Shown here: in pieces, positions 13,736 to 61,859 of the stretch
Layout of the letters: the number at the start of each line of letters is the position of its first letter
Numbering within the stretch: position 1 is the first letter of the stretch
Source: Desulfobacterales bacterium
GTDB lineage: Bacteria > Desulfobacterota > Desulfobacteria > Desulfobacterales > JAHEIW01
DNA length: 64,000 nt
Assembly: GCA_030066985.1 (NCBI GenBank)
Contig: JASJAN010000008.1
Span: forward strand, 62,001 to 126,000
Direction of reading: 5' to 3'
The notes under the pieces: model-generated
The model's database searches: none
What the model saw: the letters and a program-made list of their open reading frames with translations, nothing else
Told to the model about the DNA's origin: nothing
Position numbers and translations under genes: made by a program

Positions 13736-13740
13736 GCTTC

Positions 13741-13833
13741 GTTATTTGTTAATGGTTATTGGTTTTTCGTTAGCCTAAAAAATAGAATATACGGTTTCGT
13801 TCCCAATAACCAATAACCAGTAACCAATAACTT
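13741..13833. repeat. GGTTATTG-type inverted word cassette (copy 1)
   Basis: Left arm 13741-13772 is built of GTTATTTGTTAATGGTTATTGG-like words. Right arm 13803-13833 is built of CCAATAACC units in the complementary sense. The ~30-base centre is unrelated. Together they can fold as a long imperfect hairpin between the two tRNA-Ser genes. The same words recur at 31520-31606 and 32243-32357. Confidence 0.75.
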
Positions 13834-25311: not shown

Positions 25312-25330
25312 AGCAGCTCCCAAGTAAAGT

Positions 25331-25484
25331 ACAGGTTTCAGGTGTCAGGTTTCAGGTGTCAGTGCTCAGTCATCACAGGTCAGAAAACAGCGAAGCGGTG
25401 CAAACAAAGCTTGTCCGCAGTTATCTTGGCATTGTAGTCGGATAACGGTTTACTGAAACCTGACACCTGAACACTGAAAACTTT
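25331..25484. repeat. CAGGTGTCAG-type inverted word cassette (copy 1)
   Basis: The left arm (25331-25370) repeats CAGGTTTCAGGTGTCAGG. The right arm (25451-25484) reads CTGAAACCTGACACCTGAACACTG in the complementary sense. The centre is unique. It lies upstream of the HD gene (minus) and before tolQ (plus). The words recur at 35411-35567. Confidence 0.75.
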
Positions 25485-31519: not shown

Positions 31520-31606
31520 TTAACCGTTAATAGTTATTCGTTATTGGTTATTCGATTGGGATCTCAGGACAGATTTGCTCCAATAACAAATAACCACTAA
31601 CTATAG
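31520..31606. repeat. GGTTATTG-type inverted word cassette (copy 2)
   Basis: The left arm (31520-31558) is TTAACCGTTAATAGTTATTCG then TTATTGGTTATTCGATTGG. The right arm (31580-31606) is CCAATAACAAATAACCACTAAC. It fills the ruvC-ruvA gap and ends just before the ruvA ribosome site. Confidence 0.75.
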
Positions 31607-31627
31607 TTTTTGGAGTGGAGCAACACC

Positions 31628-32242
31628 ATGATTGGTTATATTGAAGGCAAAATTTTGAAAAAAGAAGATGAACGGGTTCTCGTGCTGGCCAATCAGGTGG
31701 GGTATGAAATTTTGCTGCCGGCTTATGTGATGGAGACCCTAAAACCTCGCAAAGCCGGTGACGAGATCGCGCTTTATGTTTTTTATCAGCAAACCGAAAG
31801 GCAACCGAAACCGATCTTAATTGGGTTTAACCTTGAAGCCGAAAAAGAATTTTTTCAATCCTTCATTTCGGTCGAAGATATTGGGCCCTTAAAAGCTGTC
31901 AAAGCCTTGAGCATTCCGGTCAGTGATGTTGCCGAGGCTATCGAAAGTCGTGATGTTCAAAGCCTTACCCGGCTCAAAGGCATTGGTGCGCGGACGGCTC
32001 AAAAAATAATTGCTACCCTTGAAGGCAAGATGGGCAAATTTGCGCTTATTTGCAAAACCGAAAAACCCGAAGCCAAACCGGTGGAAGATTTTCCAGAGCA
32101 GGTTTTCGAAGTCCTTGCGAAGCAGCTTGGCCACAAGGCCGCTGATGCCAAGCGGATGATCGCTGACGCCCTTAAGCGCAAACCGGCGATAACCTCACCC
32201 GAACAGCTGTTAGATGAAATTTATCGGGGCGAAAAAGCGTGA
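31628..32242 (+). CDS. ruvA: Holliday junction DNA helicase subunit RuvA
   Basis: A 204-residue junction-binding protein. It has an N-terminal OB-fold (MIGYIEGKI), two helix-hairpin-helix motifs (LTRLKGIGARTAQKII, about 103-118), and a C-terminal UBA-like domain (DAKRMIADAL) that contacts RuvB. The ATG at 31628 follows GGAG. An in-frame start at 31610 lies within the spacer. Confidence 0.95.
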   Translation: MIGYIEGKILKKEDERVLVLANQVGYEILLPAYVMETLKPRKAGDEIALYVFYQQTERQPKPILIGFNLEAEKEFFQSFISVEDIGPLKAVKALSIPVSDVAEAIESRDVQSLTRLKGIGARTAQKIIATLEGKMGKFALICKTEKPEAKPVEDFPEQVFEVLAKQLGHKAADAKRMIADALKRKPAITSPEQLLDEIYRGEKA

Positions 32243-32357
32243 TGGTTATTCGTTATTGGTTAATGGTTATTGGTTATGGGTTATTTGAAAGTGTCAATCA
32301 CATCTGTCATAATGTTTCTAGTCTCTGAGCTTTTTCCAATAACAAATAACGAATTAA
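32243..32357. repeat. GGTTATTG-type inverted word cassette (copy 3)
   Basis: The left arm (32243-32283) repeats GGTTATTCGTTATTGGTTAATGG-like words. The right arm (32335-32357) is CCAATAACAAATAACGAATTAA. It starts within two bases of the ruvA stop and runs up to the ruvB ribosome site. Confidence 0.75.
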
Positions 32358-34372: not shown

Positions 34373-35409
34373 ACATTGACAAGTATAAAAAAACACGCCG
34401 TCGGGGCGCTGACAGGCGCTGGACGCTATTATTTATCGGCGATCATGGAAAACAGTACACCATAAAGCGATTCAAGGTCATTATCGCGACGGTGGGGTGC
34501 GTATTTCTGCTGGTGCTTGCTTTTCTGGCAATTCTGTTATGGGGTCATCAAAAATCCCTTGCCGAAAATAAAGATCTTCAAAGACGATTGCAGAATTCAC
34601 AGCAACAGATCGAGACGCTGCGACATGAAAAAGAGATTCTGATGGCCCGACTGGTGGTCGCTGAATCACAATCCAAAGAATCGCGCCTAAATCAGACGCC
34701 TCAAAAAAATCCTATTGCCACCAAAGCGGCCGGCAACGTTGTGCCGCCGGCAAGCGTACCCAAGCCGGTTCCCAAACCCGAAAAAAAGCCGTCTGTTGCT
34801 GCGGCGCGCCAGCTCCCAGCAGCAGGTCCACAGGCAAATGAAACAGAAGCGGTGATGAAGGTCGCAGTGGATAATTTCAAGGTGTCACGTGATGCAGGCA
34901 AGGGGACCGTAACGGCACAGTTTAAAATAAAAAATACCAGCTCCGGCAACCTGCGCGCAGACGGTGTTGCGGTGGTCATATTAAAGGGTAACGATCTGAC
35001 AATATACCAGTGGTTGGTAATGCCGATGGTCGATCTTGTCGAAAATAAACCAACCGGTAAACGCGGTAAACGGTTTGTTATCAAACGGTTCCGCACCATG
35101 AATTTTACCTCGCGGGCACCGAAGTATGCCGATCAATTTCAGCTTGCTGAAGTCTATGTGTTCAGCAAGACCGGACAGCCGCTGCTAGAGCGGGAATTTG
35201 CCATCAAATTGCCCCCACTACCGGCTGTGGCCGTCGAATCACCGGCTGCAGCGCCACCGAAGGCAAAACCGGCTGCATCGCCGTCACAACCACCGTCATC
35301 TGAGCCCACGCCTGCCCAAGAGACACCTGCCAGCCCGTCTGCCCCCAGTGAAGATCCCACCGGGGGTGATGTGCTTGAAGAGTTGGAAAACGCACCGCCG
35401 GTATTTTAG
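34369..35409 (+). CDS. Membrane-anchored protein of unknown function with Pro-rich tail
   Basis: A 346-residue protein I do not recognise. It has a basic cytosolic start (residues 1-38), one transmembrane helix (about 39-60), a short coiled coil (about 62-100) and a Pro/Lys linker. A folded domain follows (about 160-280) with a strand-rich pattern (AQFKIKNTSSGNLRADGVAVV ...), and then a Pro/Ala/Ser-rich tail. The topology suggests an inner-membrane anchored periplasmic protein. It is translationally coupled to the SAM-hydrolase gene (ATGA overlap), but the two have no obvious functional link. Confidence 0.7.
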   Translation: MNIDKYKKTRRRGADRRWTLLFIGDHGKQYTIKRFKVIIATVGCVFLLVLAFLAILLWGHQKSLAENKDLQRRLQNSQQQIETLRHEKEILMARLVVAESQSKESRLNQTPQKNPIATKAAGNVVPPASVPKPVPKPEKKPSVAAARQLPAAGPQANETEAVMKVAVDNFKVSRDAGKGTVTAQFKIKNTSSGNLRADGVAVVILKGNDLTIYQWLVMPMVDLVENKPTGKRGKRFVIKRFRTMNFTSRAPKYADQFQLAEVYVFSKTGQPLLEREFAIKLPPLPAVAVESPAAAPPKAKPAASPSQPPSSEPTPAQETPASPSAPSEDPTGGDVLEELENAPPVF

Positions 35410-35410
35410 A

Positions 35411-35567
35411 TTTCAGGTGTCAGGTGTTAGGTTTCAGGTGTCAGCTTGCTGAATGTTTTATCGAGAGGTGTAGTTTCTCCGTCACAGCTATGATGTCACA
35501 GCCATCAGAGCCCACAGATGGGCCCTCTGGTCTAAAACTGACACCTGACACCTGAACACTGAAGCCT
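35411..35567. repeat. CAGGTGTCAG-type inverted word cassette (copy 2)
   Basis: The left arm (35411-35446) repeats TTTCAGGTGTCAGGTGTTAGG. The right arm (35536-35567) reads CTGACACCTGACACCTGAAC in the complementary sense. It fills the gap between two convergent genes, the plus unknown gene and the minus CYTH gene. Confidence 0.75.
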
Positions 35568-35569
35568 AT

Positions 35570-36187
35570 TTAGGTTTTAGCATCGCCAACTTCCAATTGA
35601 TTCAAAAAAGCGCCAACATCCAAGTCATCAGATTGGAAGTTGTCAAAGGTGACGTCCCCAAATGCAAGCTGGCGTTTTTTCTTGAGGAATTCAAATATTT
35701 CAAGATAATTCAGCAAAATACGTCTGTGCCACTTTAAGTCGAGCTGGGCGGCATGCTGCCGGATATGGTCCTCTGGGCCCTCGATTTCCAGGAAGGTGCC
35801 ATAAGGCATGGTATCCAGAAAAAAGGCTGTTGGACCCAGAATCAAGGTTTCACGCCATTTTTCATAGCGTTGCACCGCCCGCAGGCCCACCCGGACCAAG
35901 ATCTGATGCAGGGTCTCAAAGTCAGACACCTCGACTTCCAGTTCATTGAAAATCTTAAAATCCCGACTGGCCTTCGCCGGTCTGGATTTAAATGTCAGTA
36001 TGGCCTTTTGGTCCTGACGCAGTCGCAACAGGGAATGGTTCTTGATTAGGTTATGCCCCCTATCTTCGTAGCGAATATTGTTCTCAAATACACGCCCCAA
36101 CGATTCGGCCCCCAGAGCAACGATACGCCGCTGCATGCGGTCGATGTCTTCCAAGTAAAATTTGACCTCTACTTCACGTTTTTGCAT
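35570..36187 (-). CDS. CYTH-domain protein (class IV adenylate cyclase / triphosphatase-like)
   Basis: A 205-residue CYTH (CyaB/ThTPase) domain protein. The diagnostic E-x-E-x-K motif is at REVEVKFYL (residues 4-12), with later R-L-R-Q, tunnel strand LTFKSRP and the E-x-E-V pattern. CYTH proteins bind metal-triphosphate and include adenylate cyclases, thiamine triphosphatases and inorganic triphosphatases; which applies is not resolvable. The ATG at 36187 has AAGGA upstream, so the ORF extension to 36286 is rejected. Confidence 0.85.
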   Translation of the reverse strand: MQKREVEVKFYLEDIDRMQRRIVALGAESLGRVFENNIRYEDRGHNLIKNHSLLRLRQDQKAILTFKSRPAKASRDFKIFNELEVEVSDFETLHQILVRVGLRAVQRYEKWRETLILGPTAFFLDTMPYGTFLEIEGPEDHIRQHAAQLDLKWHRRILLNYLEIFEFLKKKRQLAFGDVTFDNFQSDDLDVGAFLNQLEVGDAKT

Positions 36188-50615: not shown

Positions 50616-51599
50616 CTATTGACCAAAAAGAACCGGACAGCGGGCATGGTGTCCGTCTTCATATTCACACATGGTTGGATATTGTTCCCGGCAGGTCTGA
50701 ATGGCGTGCCGGCAGCGCGGATGAAACGGGCAGCCTGCAGGTTTGTAAGCCGGATTGGGAACTGTGCCGGGTATGCTATACAGCCGCTGGCCTCTCTTTT
50801 CGCGATTGGGAAGCGATGCTAGCAGCGCCTGGGTATAGGGATGTTTGGGCGTTTTTAAAACAGCATCTTTTTTTCCCTGCTCGGCGATCATACCGGCATA
50901 CATCACACAAATTCGATCGGCCACCTTTGAGACCACCCCCAGATCGTGGGTGATATATAAAACCGACATAGACCGCTCAGTTTGGATACGCTCCAGCAGG
51001 CGTAGAATCTGGTCCTGAACGGTGACATCCAGTGCGGTGGTGGGCTCATCGGCGATGACCAGTTCCGGATCACAGGCCAGTGCCATGGCAATCATTACGC
51101 GTTGGCGCTGGCCGCCACTCAGTTGATGCGGGTAGTCATTTAAGCGTTGGGCCGGATCGGCAATACCGACATCTTTTAAAAGTTGCGCACTGCGGTGGTT
51201 GACTTCGTCCTGGGGTGCCGTCTGGTGAACCTGGATGGCCTCGCCGATTTGATCACCAATGGTAAAGACCGGATTTAAGGATGTCAGGGGTTCCTGAAAA
51301 ACCATGGCGATTTGATTGCCGCGGATTGACTGCATTTCATTATCATTAAGATCCAGTAGATTTTGATCGCCAAATAAAATACGTCCACCGGCAATTTCCC
51401 CGGGTGGGATGGGAACCAGCCCCATGACGCTCAGCGCCGTGACAGTCTTGCCGCAACCAGACTCTCCGACCAAACAGACGGTTTCTTCGCCGTCGACATC
51501 AAAACTAACGCCGTCCACTGCCCGGGCGATTTCATCCTCGCTGTGAAAGTAAATTTTTAATTCTTCTACTGTAAGTAATTTATTTGTATTATTATTCAT
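50616..51599 (-). CDS. oppD: Oligopeptide ABC transporter ATPase OppD/DppD
   Basis: A 327-residue ATPase with Walker [14 protein letters not shown] (about 41-53), signature [15 protein letters not shown], Walker [13 protein letters not shown] and H-switch THDLGVV. The C-terminal peptide-transporter segment is [11 protein letters not shown]. It pairs with OppF. A 204-base gap containing a long hairpin separates it from oppC, unusual in an otherwise tight operon. Confidence 0.95.
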
Positions 51600-51656
51600 A
51601 CGTGATTTCTATCGCCTGTTTGCAACTTGTTCGCAAATATGTGAAACAAAAAATAA

Positions 51657-51803
51657 CCTAAACTGTTTTCGAGGCTTTTAGATTTTGTTCGATAGCAAGG
51701 CGGAATGTGATTCAAAAACGGAGCGTACACGTTAGTACGCGAGCATTTTGAATCGCATTGCAACACAGCTATCGGGCAAAAGATGACAGCATTGAAAATA
51801 GTT
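51657..51803. repeat. Stop-codon-anchored nested hairpin, copy A (between oppC and oppD)
   Basis: One long imperfect hairpin fills the oppC-oppD gap. The inner stem is GCGTAC (51723-51728) with GTACGC (51735-51740) around ACGTTA. The middle stem is 51704-51717 with 51746-51759 (14 pairs, one G-T). Outer stems include TTTTGTTCGATAGC (51683-51696) with 51768-51781, and a further imperfect arm reaching the oppC stop (51804-51806). A 16-base core beginning GATTCAAAAAC (51709-51724) is identical in copy B (61426-61605). Confidence 0.8.
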
Positions 51804-52973
51804 TTAATGTCGGTCGCGAAGCTTGGGGTTGAGCACATCCCGCAACCCCTCTCCGAATAGGTTGAACGACAGCACCACAATCAATATGGCGATTCCGGGC
51901 ACAAATGTCAGCCAGGGGGCATCAAAAATAAACCCTTTGCCGCCGGACAAAATGTTTCCCCAGGTGGCATAGGGCGGCGGCACGCCGAAACCCAGGAAGC
52001 TCAGACCGGCTTCGGTCAAAATGGCGCTGGCGATGCCGATGGTCGCCGAAACCAGCACCGGTGCCACTGCATTGGGGATCATGTGACGAAAAATGATGCG
52101 AAAATTGCTCAACCCCAGCGCCCGCGCAGCAGCCACAAAGTCCTGTTCTCTTAATGACAGAAACTCGGCGCGCACAAACCGGGTGGCACCCATCCAGCTG
52201 GTTAATCCAATTACGACCATGATATTGTAGATGCTGGCCGGCAGCAGGGCCACAACCGTCAGGATCAGGAAAAAACTGGGAAAGCAAAGCATGATGTCGA
52301 CAAAACGCATTACCACCGTATCAATTGAAATGGTCTTAAAATACCACATGCGCTTACCGATGGATCTGTTTTTGGCTTTAACAGACTTTTTCATTCTCAG
52401 CGAAATCAAGATACAACCGCAGCCGCAGATCAAAACGGCAACGCCGGCCCATATGAGTTTGCCGATTATCAGCAATACACCAATGATCAGCAAAGTTGCA
52501 GTCAACAACTGTCCAATGCGAATATGGCGACTGCCGTAATAGCCGGCAATGCCGCCCAAAAATATGCCGATCAGCACCGAAATGCCGACGGCCACAAAAC
52601 CGACGGTCAAAGAGACCCAGGACCCCTGCATCATTCTGGCAAAGATATCGCGGCCCAGATCATCGGTGCCGAATATGTAAACACCCAGTTTGGGGACCTC
52701 CGTGGGTTGTAGCCGTTCTATATTGGGTCTGGCCAGCGGCGGGCGCAGTTTATCCTGTAAGCGCACCTGGGCAGGATCCAGAACCGGCTTGCTGCCGCGT
52801 GTTAATGCAAAGCCGGCGATGGCCAAAAAGAAAAAGAGAATGAAAAAAACCATGCCGGCAATCGCCAGTCTGTTTTGTTTGAAAAGGCGCCAGAACTCTT
52901 GCAGACGGGTGCGTTTGGGTGCCAGCGGTTCATCCAGCTGGATATCTTGGATGTCTGTATCTGTATGTTCCAT
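51804..52973 (-). CDS. oppC: Oligopeptide ABC transporter permease OppC
   Basis: A 389-residue inner-membrane permease. It has a normal OppC N-terminus and first helix, then FGTDDLGRDIFARMMQGS and the EAA loop (QDFVAAARALGLSNFRII, then HMIPNAVAPV). An insertion of about 68 residues (about 149-216) stands between the GYYG turn and the IDTVVMRFVDIML helix; it includes two extra hydrophobic segments and a basic stretch. It overlaps oppB by one base (TAATG). Confidence 0.93.
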   Translation of the reverse strand: MEHTDTDIQDIQLDEPLAPKRTRLQEFWRLFKQNRLAIAGMVFFILFFFLAIAGFALTRGSKPVLDPAQVRLQDKLRPPLARPNIERLQPTEVPKLGVYIFGTDDLGRDIFARMMQGSWVSLTVGFVAVGISVLIGIFLGGIAGYYGSRHIRIGQLLTATLLIIGVLLIIGKLIWAGVAVLICGCGCILISLRMKKSVKAKNRSIGKRMWYFKTISIDTVVMRFVDIMLCFPSFFLILTVVALLPASIYNIMVVIGLTSWMGATRFVRAEFLSLREQDFVAAARALGLSNFRIIFRHMIPNAVAPVLVSATIGIASAILTEAGLSFLGFGVPPPYATWGNILSGGKGFIFDAPWLTFVPGIAILIVVLSFNLFGEGLRDVLNPKLRDRH

Positions 52974-60591: not shown

Positions 60592-61428
60592 ATGGTCGAT
60601 ATTCAAGACAGCATGCCGCCTGATCCAGAAAAGGCAGAAGAACAAAAGGAAGCGGCGGTCAGAGCGTCGCTGCAGAAAATTAAGCAAAAAATCATTGTCA
60701 TGAGTGGCAAAGGGGGCGTCGGCAAAACCAGCACGGCCGTCAATCTATCGCTGGCCCTTGCCGATGCCGGGCATCAGGTGGGTATCATGGACGTTGATTT
60801 GCACGGCCCGGATGTGCCCCGCATGCTGGGGTTAGACGGAATGCCCCAACTGGGACCCAATCAAAAACTGAGGCCAATGGCTTACTCGGCAAATTTAAGC
60901 GCCATGTCAATAGAGTCTTTTATCCCCGGCAAAGACGACGCGATCATTTGGCGCGGACCGATGAAGTTTGCGGCCATCCGCCAGTTTATCGGCGATGTTG
61001 ACTGGGGAGCACTCGATTTTCTGGTAATTGACAGCCCTCCGGGTACCGGTGATGAACCGCTGACAGTGGCTCAAATTGTTTCGGATGCACGGGCCGTTAT
61101 TGTGACCACCCCCCAGGAGGTGGCTTTGGCCGACGTTCGCAAATCGATTAATTTCTGCAAGACCGTCAAAATGAACATCTTTGGTCTGGTGGAGAACATG
61201 AGTGGTCTCAACTGTCCCCATTGTGGTGAGATGATCGATCTGTATGGCTCCGGCGGCGGTGAAAGAACTGCCAAGCAAACCGGCATTCCTTTTCTGGGCA
61301 AGATTCCCTTCGATCCCAATGTCGTCGCCTGCGGGGATTCGGGGGCCTGCTATCATAAAGTCCATGCCGATACCGCTGTGTCAAGGGCCTATGCGGATGT
61401 GGCAAAGAAGTTAGCAAAACTAACCTGA
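60592..61428 (+). CDS. Mrp/NBP35-family iron-sulfur carrier ATPase
   Basis: A 278-residue P-loop ATPase that carries or inserts iron-sulfur clusters (Mrp/ApbC, NBP35). Walker A is MSGKGGVGKTSTAVNLS (about 38-54). The Mrp-type signature has IDSPPGTGDEP, TTPQEVALADV, and the C-terminal NCPHCG near 205 with the C-x2-C that holds the bridging cluster. Ribosome site TAGGAG before the ATG. It forms an operon with the UPF0251 gene. A stop-anchored hairpin begins at its TGA. Confidence 0.93.
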   Translation: MVDIQDSMPPDPEKAEEQKEAAVRASLQKIKQKIIVMSGKGGVGKTSTAVNLSLALADAGHQVGIMDVDLHGPDVPRMLGLDGMPQLGPNQKLRPMAYSANLSAMSIESFIPGKDDAIIWRGPMKFAAIRQFIGDVDWGALDFLVIDSPPGTGDEPLTVAQIVSDARAVIVTTPQEVALADVRKSINFCKTVKMNIFGLVENMSGLNCPHCGEMIDLYGSGGGERTAKQTGIPFLGKIPFDPNVVACGDSGACYHKVHADTAVSRAYADVAKKLAKLT

Positions 61429-61605
61429 AGTCATCTCAAAAATGCGTCTAACCCGCCAGAGGCGGGCAAGCGCCCAATGGTCCGCCAATATTCGTGGCGG
61501 ATTAAAAACCGATTCAAAATACTCGAATACTAGCGTGTATGCTCCGTTTTTGAATCGGTTTTCGCCTTGCCCTTGGACGTTATCCACTATTTTTGAGATA
61601 ACTTC
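61426..61605. repeat. Stop-codon-anchored nested hairpin, copy B (after mrp)
   Basis: The outer arms GAAGTCATCTCAAAAAT (61427-61443) and ATTTTTGAGATAACTTC (61589-61605) pair, starting within the mrp stop (TGA 61426-61428). The middle stem is 61504-61519 with 61547-61562 (AAAACCGATTC type), and the inner stem is GAATAC (61525-61530) with GTATGC (61537-61542). Read on the minus strand, its core matches copy A at 51709-51750, while stem bases differ in compensating pairs. A segment near 61452-61466 (CCCGCCAGAGGCGGG) forms a further small stem. Confidence 0.8.
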
Positions 61606-61680
61606 CATCATCATTTTTCATAGAGCAGATCCTTTTAAAATATCTCTTAAATTGGTTGTCCAAGATTTACTCGGCGTAAA

Positions 61681-61859
61681 GGTCATGTTTTTTTCTGAAA
61701 GGCGCTATGCAGTTAAATGATCACCATCGTACGAAGTGGCCTGATATTTGGGATGATTAGTATGCTATTATTTGGGTATATAACAGTGTAGATTTCATGC
61801 CAAATATCAGGCCACAGGCAACTTACATTTCATAGCGCCTGGAAGAAAATGACATGACC
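61681..61859. repeat. 180-base imperfect palindrome, MITE-like
   Basis: The terminal arms are GGTCATGT...AGGCGCTATG (61681-61709) and its complement (61831-61859), and GTGGCCTGATATTTGG (61736-61751) with the perfect complement at 61800-61815. A 48-base centre is unpaired. The outer 29 bases match at 24 of 29 positions, and the inner 16 match fully. No transposase is encoded. It ends about 40 bases before the MBL-hydrolase gene. Confidence 0.75.

Follow-up and report, generated by a model that had tools for sequence, protein, structure and literature searches.

The window, a stretch of 64,000 nucleotides from a Desulfobacterales bacterium (contig JASJAN010000008.1, positions 62,001 to 126,000), carries on its minus strand an oppC-type permease gene followed by an ABC ATPase gene of the oppD/F type. 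Most of the 204 nt between them, as counted from the ends of the open reading frames, is taken up by a hairpin element, copy A. A second element, copy B, lies beside an Mrp/NUBPL-type ATPase gene on the plus strand, and each of the two starts at the stop codon of the preceding gene (Table 1). An earlier note on this DNA had described the oppC-oppD gap as a single nested hairpin of 197 nt sharing a core with copy B. On inspection of the sequence both copies are present where it placed them and the core is indeed shared (51695-51755 against 61510-61570, 85% identity over 61 nt), although the length of the gap was slightly off and the note did not mention that the two copies lie on opposite strands and are therefore inverted relative to each other. 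The stems that it quoted also exist, AATGTGATTC/GAATCGCATT having one G.T wobble on the plus strand. The region of copy A (51600-51803) folds at -53.7 kcal/mol (z -3.6 against shuffles) and that of copy B (61420-61610) at -74.8 kcal/mol (z -8.5).

Table 1. Coordinates of the two hairpin copies, their parts and the adjoining genes in the window
Feature	Position	Strand	Remarks
Copy A, whole element	51655..51808	+	R2 positions 1-154; cmsearch 149.7 bits (R2 includes copy A); R1 98.6 bits
oppC stop codon TAA	51804..51806	-	Outer helix begins with its third base (51804)
P1, gene-side arm of outer helix	51789..51804	+	Partner 51660-51675; R2 structure applied to the match
P1, other arm	51660..51675	+	R2 structure
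P2, one arm	51683..51696	+	Partner 51768-51781; R2 structure
P2, other arm	51768..51781	+	R2 structure
Internal loop L2, AAGGC side	51697..51701	+	Faces 51762-51767 (AACACA); conserved among copies
P3, one arm	51702..51719	+	Partner 51743-51761; contains the middle stem of the earlier note
P3, other arm	51743..51761	+	R2 structure
P4 hairpin GCGTAC-acgtta-GTACGC	51723..51740	+	With its flanks the most conserved part, common across phyla
Copy B, young subfamily	61426..61605	- (folded strand)	Nested CCGCC...GGCGG hairpins at 61452-61504
Copy B, model matches	61422..61610 (R1); 61495..61572 (R2 core)		R1 147.7 bits (C8:123422-123610); R2 core 75.6 bits
TGA stop of Mrp/NUBPL-type ATPase gene (60592-61428)	61426..61428	+	Where copy B begins
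ABC ATPase gene after copy A (oppD/F type)	50616..51599	-	PF00005, PF08352
oppC-type permease gene before copy A	51804..52973	-	PF00528, PF12911

The element is about 150 nt long, contains no gene and forms one long imperfect helix, P1 to P4, which is interrupted by conserved internal loops. Read on the gene strand from the stop codon, the order is P1, CATC, P2, CTGYGTTA, P3, TGCTC and P4 (GCGTAC-TATCGT-GTACGC), followed by CTCCRC, P3', CGCCTTG, P2', TCTAA and P1'. The loops and P4 are conserved and the helices are not; in P1 the sequence varies from copy to copy while the pairing is retained. Copy B, with its nested hairpins, belongs to a young subfamily and copy A to an older, diverged one.

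The earlier note was right to speak of a hairpin family and had named a lack of further copies as grounds for abandoning it, but its picture of two copies gave way to a high-copy, dispersed family once the covariance-model search that it had recommended was run. Model R1 was built from 22 copies of four species (alignment A1), includes neither window copy and has a structure lacking P2. In the same genome (G000) it gave 146 hits, representing at least about 120 distinct places, among the best 150 of 2865 candidates, while copy B alone as a DNA query gave at least 45 matches with 40 of 137 candidates scored. In three other species of the genus R1 gave 96, 60 and 67 hits. A second model, R2, represents the antisense strand and contains copy A; it matched all six genomes of the taxonomic family that were searched and, with 15 candidates scored per genome, 32 of 198 genomes and 27 of 145 genera of the phylum, the own genome included. 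Since only part of the candidates was scored in these searches, the copy numbers are lower bounds. The exact core pattern occurs in at least 120 stretches of named genomes, the matches listed including Desulfobacterales, Rhodanobacter, other Lysobacterales, Woeseiaceae, other Gammaproteobacteria, Nitrospinota and Nitrospiria; viral contigs had no exact match to it. All 50 distant loci match R2 at E<=0.1, and in 43 the match extends along the entire model; this is not an independent count, since the loci were selected by the core pattern or by R2. One locus (L363; G088:C1, 898670-899886) holds four tandem copies about 355 bp apart with very similar spacers of about 205 bp. The analyses below use 113 of the roughly 120 places in G000, seven edge fragments or odd ones being left out, together with 47, 13 and 9 copies from the sister species G003, G001 and G002. 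All four are draft genomes, and gene context was assigned by ORF-length rules rather than by gene prediction.

Several smaller repeats accompany the family. A second, small hairpin family (CCGCC...GGCGG) has invaded loops in some of the copies. Hairpins of CCGCCAGAGGCGG and TCCGCCAATATTCGTGGCGGA are nested in this way in copy B and in L112, L119 and L129; they are missing from the G001 counterpart of the copy C43_20025, a case of a hairpin entering hairpin loops. An insert of about 50 nt (CCAGGATAAATGGATTACACATCTATTTT...AAGGTGTGCAT) lies in the 5' L2 loop of L101, L133, L135, L173 and L344, and a TTGAACACCTTAAT...GATGTGAAATCCCGC module, another modular repeat, is found downstream of other copies. 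Nine copies (L165, L167, L168, L170, L171, L172, L174, L175 and L178) are a short variant of 85-86 nt with CCGCCGGAGGCGG or a close version of it in place of the inner half. Directly after copy B, at 61736-61815, lies a second palindromic repeat with arms of 36 nt (GTGGCCTGATATTTGGGATG...); a similar stretch in the right flank of C43_20025 (L118) in G000 indicates that it is probably a further repeat family. Degenerate short interspersed repeats (CAGGTGTCAGGTTT..., GTTATTGGTTATT...), partly inverted, occur in the window at 25325-25376, 35393-35574, 13738-13831 and 31523-32283, one set sitting between two tRNA genes (13644, 13844).

The stem changes seen between copies A and B had been taken as compensatory and as a sign of selection on structure, and this was borne out in alignment A2, which comprises 40 of the 113 own-genome copies and in which the helices covary strongly. 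Paired cells amount to 92.0% as against 77.1% in shuffles, and 41 of 55 pairs have changed on both sides (28.4 in shuffles), as have 345 cells (111.7). The covariation score of 0.510 compares with 0.227 in the shuffles. None of 500 shuffles attained any of these four measures, and pairing fell to 29-49% when partners were slid out of register; the unpaired stem differences that would have spoken against the family were thus not what was found. In A1, which is mostly of the young subfamily, both-side changes were seen in 2 of 15 P3 pairs as against 9 of 18 P1 pairs.

The strand on which the pairing was maintained can be read from the mismatches. Of the 69 copies of plain length, 59 could be parsed by anchors and 10 were dropped; in the 59, with a neutral alignment in which A.C and G.U were both treated as mismatches, the gene strand has 36 A.C against 0 G.U in P3, 76 against 7 in P2 and 36 against 33 in P1. 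The R2 structure was chosen by a script that gave G.U a weight of 0.7, so that G.U counts based on R2 lean towards wobble. The antisense strand also has the lower RNA folding energy in 107 of 113 copies in G000, 45 of 47 in G003 and all 13 and 9 in G001 and G002. It folds better in the distant copies as well (30/30, 9/9 and 4/4 by group, the group of 30 including one Fenollaria copy), a result that is biased because these copies were recruited by R2, an antisense model, or by the core pattern. In the E. coli-type relative the opposite strand is favoured in three of four copies. The hairpin that the earlier note placed in the opp operon is there, with the correction that the constrained strand is the plus strand of the window, antisense to the opp genes. 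We infer that in this clade selection acted on the antisense strand, either as RNA or as single-stranded DNA.

Of these two, DNA appears the likelier, since, of the 65 at-stop copies whose far neighbour is known, only 29 have a convergent one, and no promoter-like signal was seen in the flanks: there is no excess of -10-like sequence on the antisense side (4.45, with 4.54 in shuffles), and past the first ten or so bases of the far flank conservation is slight. The same findings, together with far genes that can be as close as 4-16 nt, make it improbable that the conserved molecule is an RNA of the antisense strand, whether an independent sRNA or the 3' UTR of a convergent gene, for all that the fixed-column G.U pairs and the strand energies agree with it. 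The pairing also bears on the idea of a classical MITE, mobilised by an IS transposase that acts on its terminal inverted repeats. Pairing between the arms would then be left over from these repeats or from template-switch repair. The size, the inverted repeats, and the TA bias, nested insertions and turnover reported here would suit such an element, and in the literature ERIC is usually called MITE-like. However, the outer P1 bases vary even in the young subfamily, in which P3 is nearly constant, and since they differ among copies they cannot be a terminal repeat recognised by sequence. Furthermore, arm repair would erase A.C and G.T equally, but the wobbles persist in fixed columns on one strand. 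We therefore consider a classical MITE unlikely, if somewhat less so than an antisense RNA.

The note had suggested inspecting whether further copies begin at stop codons, and in G000 72 of 113 do so directly, on the stop of an open frame that is 90 codons or longer. The corresponding figures are 26 of 47 in G003, 8 of 13 in G001 and 4 of 9 in G002. By the same rule the right end gave 0/113, 2/47, 0/13 and 0/9 (G000, G003, G001, G002), even though a stop triplet on the reverse strand is present there anyway in 92/113, 41/47, 10/13 and 8/9; at the gene end of the G000 copies the triplet is present in 95 of 113. Among the 41 copies off a stop codon, 11 have such a stop no more than 45 nt away, 13 begin at most 60 nt from the start of a divergent gene, and the remaining 17 show neither. 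The outermost base pair includes the third base of the stop and covaries with it: in a count repeated with the register set by other positions, TAA faced T in 52 of 60, TAG faced C in 35 of 36 and TGA faced T in 8 of 8, with 6 unplaced. TGA, the stop at copy B, is rarer at element-bearing stops (9/72) than in long ORFs of the same loci (44/209) or of the window (17/47). At the far end TA is the right-hand dinucleotide in 36 of 109 at-stop and 19 of 55 other copies, that is 55 of 164 against a background of 0.082, or about 8%; 18 of 182 copies are unplaced in this count, and its choice of register favours a purine start. Since TA flanks both ends in only 33 of the 164, a TA target duplication is not proven.

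In the distant lineages 13 of 45 copies start on an open-frame stop (offset 0-5). Nine of these are in Desulfobacterota (L225, L230, L276, L226, L289, L296, L357, L362 and L372) and four are of the Rhodanobacter/Lysobacterales type (L260, L280, L263 and L292, the records of the last two naming only Proteobacteria). None of the one or two copies tried in each of G209, G088 and G121 starts on a stop codon, and L257, L276 and L286 have an open-frame stop at the other end.

The genes concerned are unrelated, the C-termini of 67 of the 71 upstream proteins showing a mean column identity of 6% and the host genes falling into 131 Pfam families. They include core genes, one copy lying between rplW and rplB, about 16-20 nt before the start of rplB. 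Since copies adjoin such unrelated genes, opp has no special role; the parts in mRNA processing or uneven oppD/F expression that the note raised would be conjectural. The rplW-rplB copy, and likewise copy A within opp, also makes termination of transcription unlikely. The A-tract or T-tract look of some P1 arms and a solo P1-like hairpin at one G001 stop codon might suggest intrinsic or bidirectional terminators, but a U-tract after the stem is hardly enriched (a T-run follows 19% of copies as against 11% in a control stretch) and terminators would not require the conserved internal loops; we regard this as very improbable. That single G001 site also prompted us to consider insertion of the element into the loop of an older stop-codon hairpin, which is not favoured since stems at stops are rare (0-3 per offset among 78 window ORFs) and none was present at the empty sites read. 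On a rough reckoning, with TA making up 8% of dinucleotides and a spacer of about 130 nt, the TA of the stop codon would be about one in ten of those available, whereas 64% of copies are found there, which would imply either targeted insertion or severe later selection.

Comparison with the sister species shows the element coming and going at these stops. The gene ends of ten young copies were examined in G001 and G003. Six (C33_69184, C13_54100, C4_120035, C10_21525, C51_35334 and C3_13581) have an empty counterpart in one or both species that stops at the same codon, and C36_18638 has one that is a single codon longer; the counterparts of C3_34387 and C5_23674 are deleted or decayed elements on the same stop, and for C23_71947 no counterpart match was found in the two genomes. 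The genes of C1_93331 and C52_6848 are without the element and retain the stop in MB3D_Bin_18. At oppC the element is present in G000 and G001, present with P3-P4 deleted in G003, and absent from G002, which has the same stop codon. Since empty sites keep the same stop, the element did not shorten the genes but arrived at an existing stop, and by this comparison the stop codon is older than the element. Sequence divergence of the intergenic DNA means that no target duplication can be read at the empty sites.

Replacement is also evident from the aligned sites. The stop of C35_57317 carries an old-type copy in G000 and G003 and a young-type copy in G002, and at C3_161427 the stop in G001 bears a different copy, beyond which lies the 3' half of one of the G000 type. 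At one convergent gene pair the element sits on the stop of one gene in G000 (L043, C7_49301) and G001, and in G003 (L090) it has the reverse orientation and is found towards the other gene. Of the 47 G003 copies, 13 have a partner among the 113 G000 copies at the same place and in the same orientation, and 34 have none; in the shared copies pairing is largely kept where the helices differ (e.g. C16_59832), and C3_126405 has been kept in place in three species with compensatory changes. Insertion and turnover are thus shown by comparison of the sequences, and mobility is supported by the filled and empty sites.

That pairing is kept in place suggests a function, for which a simple parasite would have no use. 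Copies retained with compensatory changes would suit a cis-acting element of the mRNA, located where the ribosome stops, whose hairpin would be opened by the arriving ribosome and would control the stability or translation of the surrounding genes, its position being kept by selection. The exact position and fixed orientation at stop codons and the copies inside operons (opp, rplW-rplB) accord with such a role, as does the orientation-dependent mRNA destabilisation by ERIC cited by Delihas; for Yersinia ERIC, such control of the stability or translation of adjoining genes is reported. Against this, the mRNA strand is the worse fold and has A.C in its helices where the opposite strand has G.U, 34 of the 47 G003 copies have no counterpart in place and orientation among the 113 G000 copies, and the host genes are unrelated. 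We therefore hold an mRNA element to be doubtful, though the most credible of the alternatives.

A mobile repeat was one of the options offered in the earlier note, and copy number, turnover and filled and empty sites now support it. We propose, at about even confidence, that we are dealing with a non-autonomous mobile hairpin of the general type of ERIC/IRU, which moved by way of its folded antisense strand and inserted at stop codons, its pairing being kept afterwards. What is recognised and mobilised would be a single folded strand, the one antisense to the gene beside which the element ends up. Recognition would not be through a terminal-repeat sequence, since these repeats differ among copies and only their pairing is kept. 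Insertion would take place beside a TA, mostly that of a pre-existing TAA or TAG stop, and the element would supply or keep the purine that completes the stop, so that the gene stays whole. With time a copy would acquire compensatory changes, and it would sometimes lose internal parts or give way to a different copy at that stop. Conjectural in this proposal are the passage through a single strand, TA as the target and the involvement of an enzyme, and the preference for stop codons might be caused either by insertion coupled to translation termination or by strong later selection. Counting against a mobile hairpin are the 19 Y1 transposase loci of the genus, none of which has an R2 match nearby, TA on both sides in only 33 of 164 copies, the pairing kept in place, the TGA stops (9/72), the off-stop copies (41/113), the mere 13 of 45 distant copies at stops and the three with an open-frame stop at the other end, the strand preference of the E. 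coli-type relative and a left arm that has no visible derivation from the empty site.

Comparison with known systems places the element among several that share parts of its design. The attC sites of integrons follow a stop codon, work as a folded bottom strand and vary in their stems while the pairing stays; they have GTT/AAC core boxes, with the R box GTTRRRY and AAC in both arms. Identity with attC was rejected since the R-box GTTRRRY/AAC columns are not conserved in A2, and unlike attC the element is dispersed after core genes and not found in cassette arrays. In the REP/RAYT system, whose repeats are GTAG-tagged palindromes, a folded single strand is the mobile form. Membership in that system was likewise rejected, as none of 19 Y1 transposase loci in the genus, Y1 being the type searched, had an R2 match nearby. 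According to one source, REPs are 20-40 bp long and their ends often provide a TAG stop to flanking ORFs (PMC3733652), which gives the contact with stop codons a precedent. Among RNA families, Rfam gave two tRNAs and nothing else for the window, and for sets of 8, 8 and 7 sources, with E cut-offs of 1 or 0.5, it had no match at the gathering level. The Xanthomonas sRNA sX9 (RF02228) has the apical hairpin in common with E. coli-type copies, on the gene strand, in a short match of 30.7-32.3 bits that is below the gathering score (44); the desulfobacterial copies tried gave no match to it. Among the papers listed by term searches of the literature none was seen to describe the hairpin family, the texts of De Gregorio 2005 and Wilson and Sharp 2006 lying outside this scope, and searches with sequence strings gave unrelated matches only. 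Papers drawn on include PMC2759123, PMC2229807, PMC2267715, PMC3733652 and PMC6337395.

The nearest described kind in design is ERIC (IRU, RU-1; 127 bp), which the literature describes as a single long imperfect intergenic hairpin in many copies, with TA ends and an orientation-dependent effect near genes. The desulfobacterial element is likewise a long imperfect, gene-free intergenic hairpin in many copies; a conserved short terminal inverted repeat, as in ERIC, was not found, P1 varying and pairing alone being kept. Unlike ERIC, its helices diverge with compensation, its fold is strand-biased and it contacts the stop codon exactly. The apical GGAGCxTAC..GTAxGTGA of ERIC and the flanking segments align end to end with R2, weakly (18.8 and 21.3 bits) but as the top match in the right place and strand (E 0.021 in 40 kb, the next match having 16 bits), so that a sequence link is only suggestive. 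Of two ERICs examined, one starts 1 nt after the ybhI stop and the other about 55 nt after psuT. YPAL (RU-2) of Yersinia, compared by description only, is similar in size (167-169 bp), in being a hairpin and in being MITE-like, and differs in that its ends are listed as without TA.

By sequence, relatives of the desulfobacterial repeat exist in Gammaproteobacteria, E. coli included. The link is clear for a repeat of about 152 bp in E. coli, Salmonella and Klebsiella, which matches R2 end to end (positions 1-154) with 46.4, 36.5 and 44.6 bits in L394-L396 and was found by BLAST in 5375 of 5426 E. coli genomes, at a median of 5 places. This repeat (L394-L397) may be RSA, a 152-bp family of E. 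coli. In strain N3 a copy identified by BLAST, and outside the R2 scoring, occupies the gap between qseE and qseG. It sits a few nt past the stop of qseE, an arrangement resembling that of copy A between oppC and oppD. Unlike the desulfobacterial element, the repeat has few copies, and three of the four fold better on the gene strand. We put forward more tentatively, as somewhat unlikely on present evidence, a mobile-hairpin family extending across phyla, with base-exact insertion in one orientation at translation stops through a folded single strand of the template side, of which ERIC and the E. coli repeat would be the enterobacterial members. If this is true, the stop codon would be recognised through translation or its by-products, for which, to our knowledge, there is no known example. 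RelE cuts mRNA inside the ribosome, separating the second from the third base of a stop codon in the A site, and mRNA cleaved in this manner could mark the site; alternatively, the DNA opened just behind the last ribosome could do so. Copies number in the hundreds, their covariation is strong, the folding strand is clear, and occupied as well as empty orthologous sites are available. The family makes the mechanism testable and poses a sharp question, namely what reads a stop codon in DNA, for one hairpin design that spans Desulfobacterota and Gammaproteobacteria.
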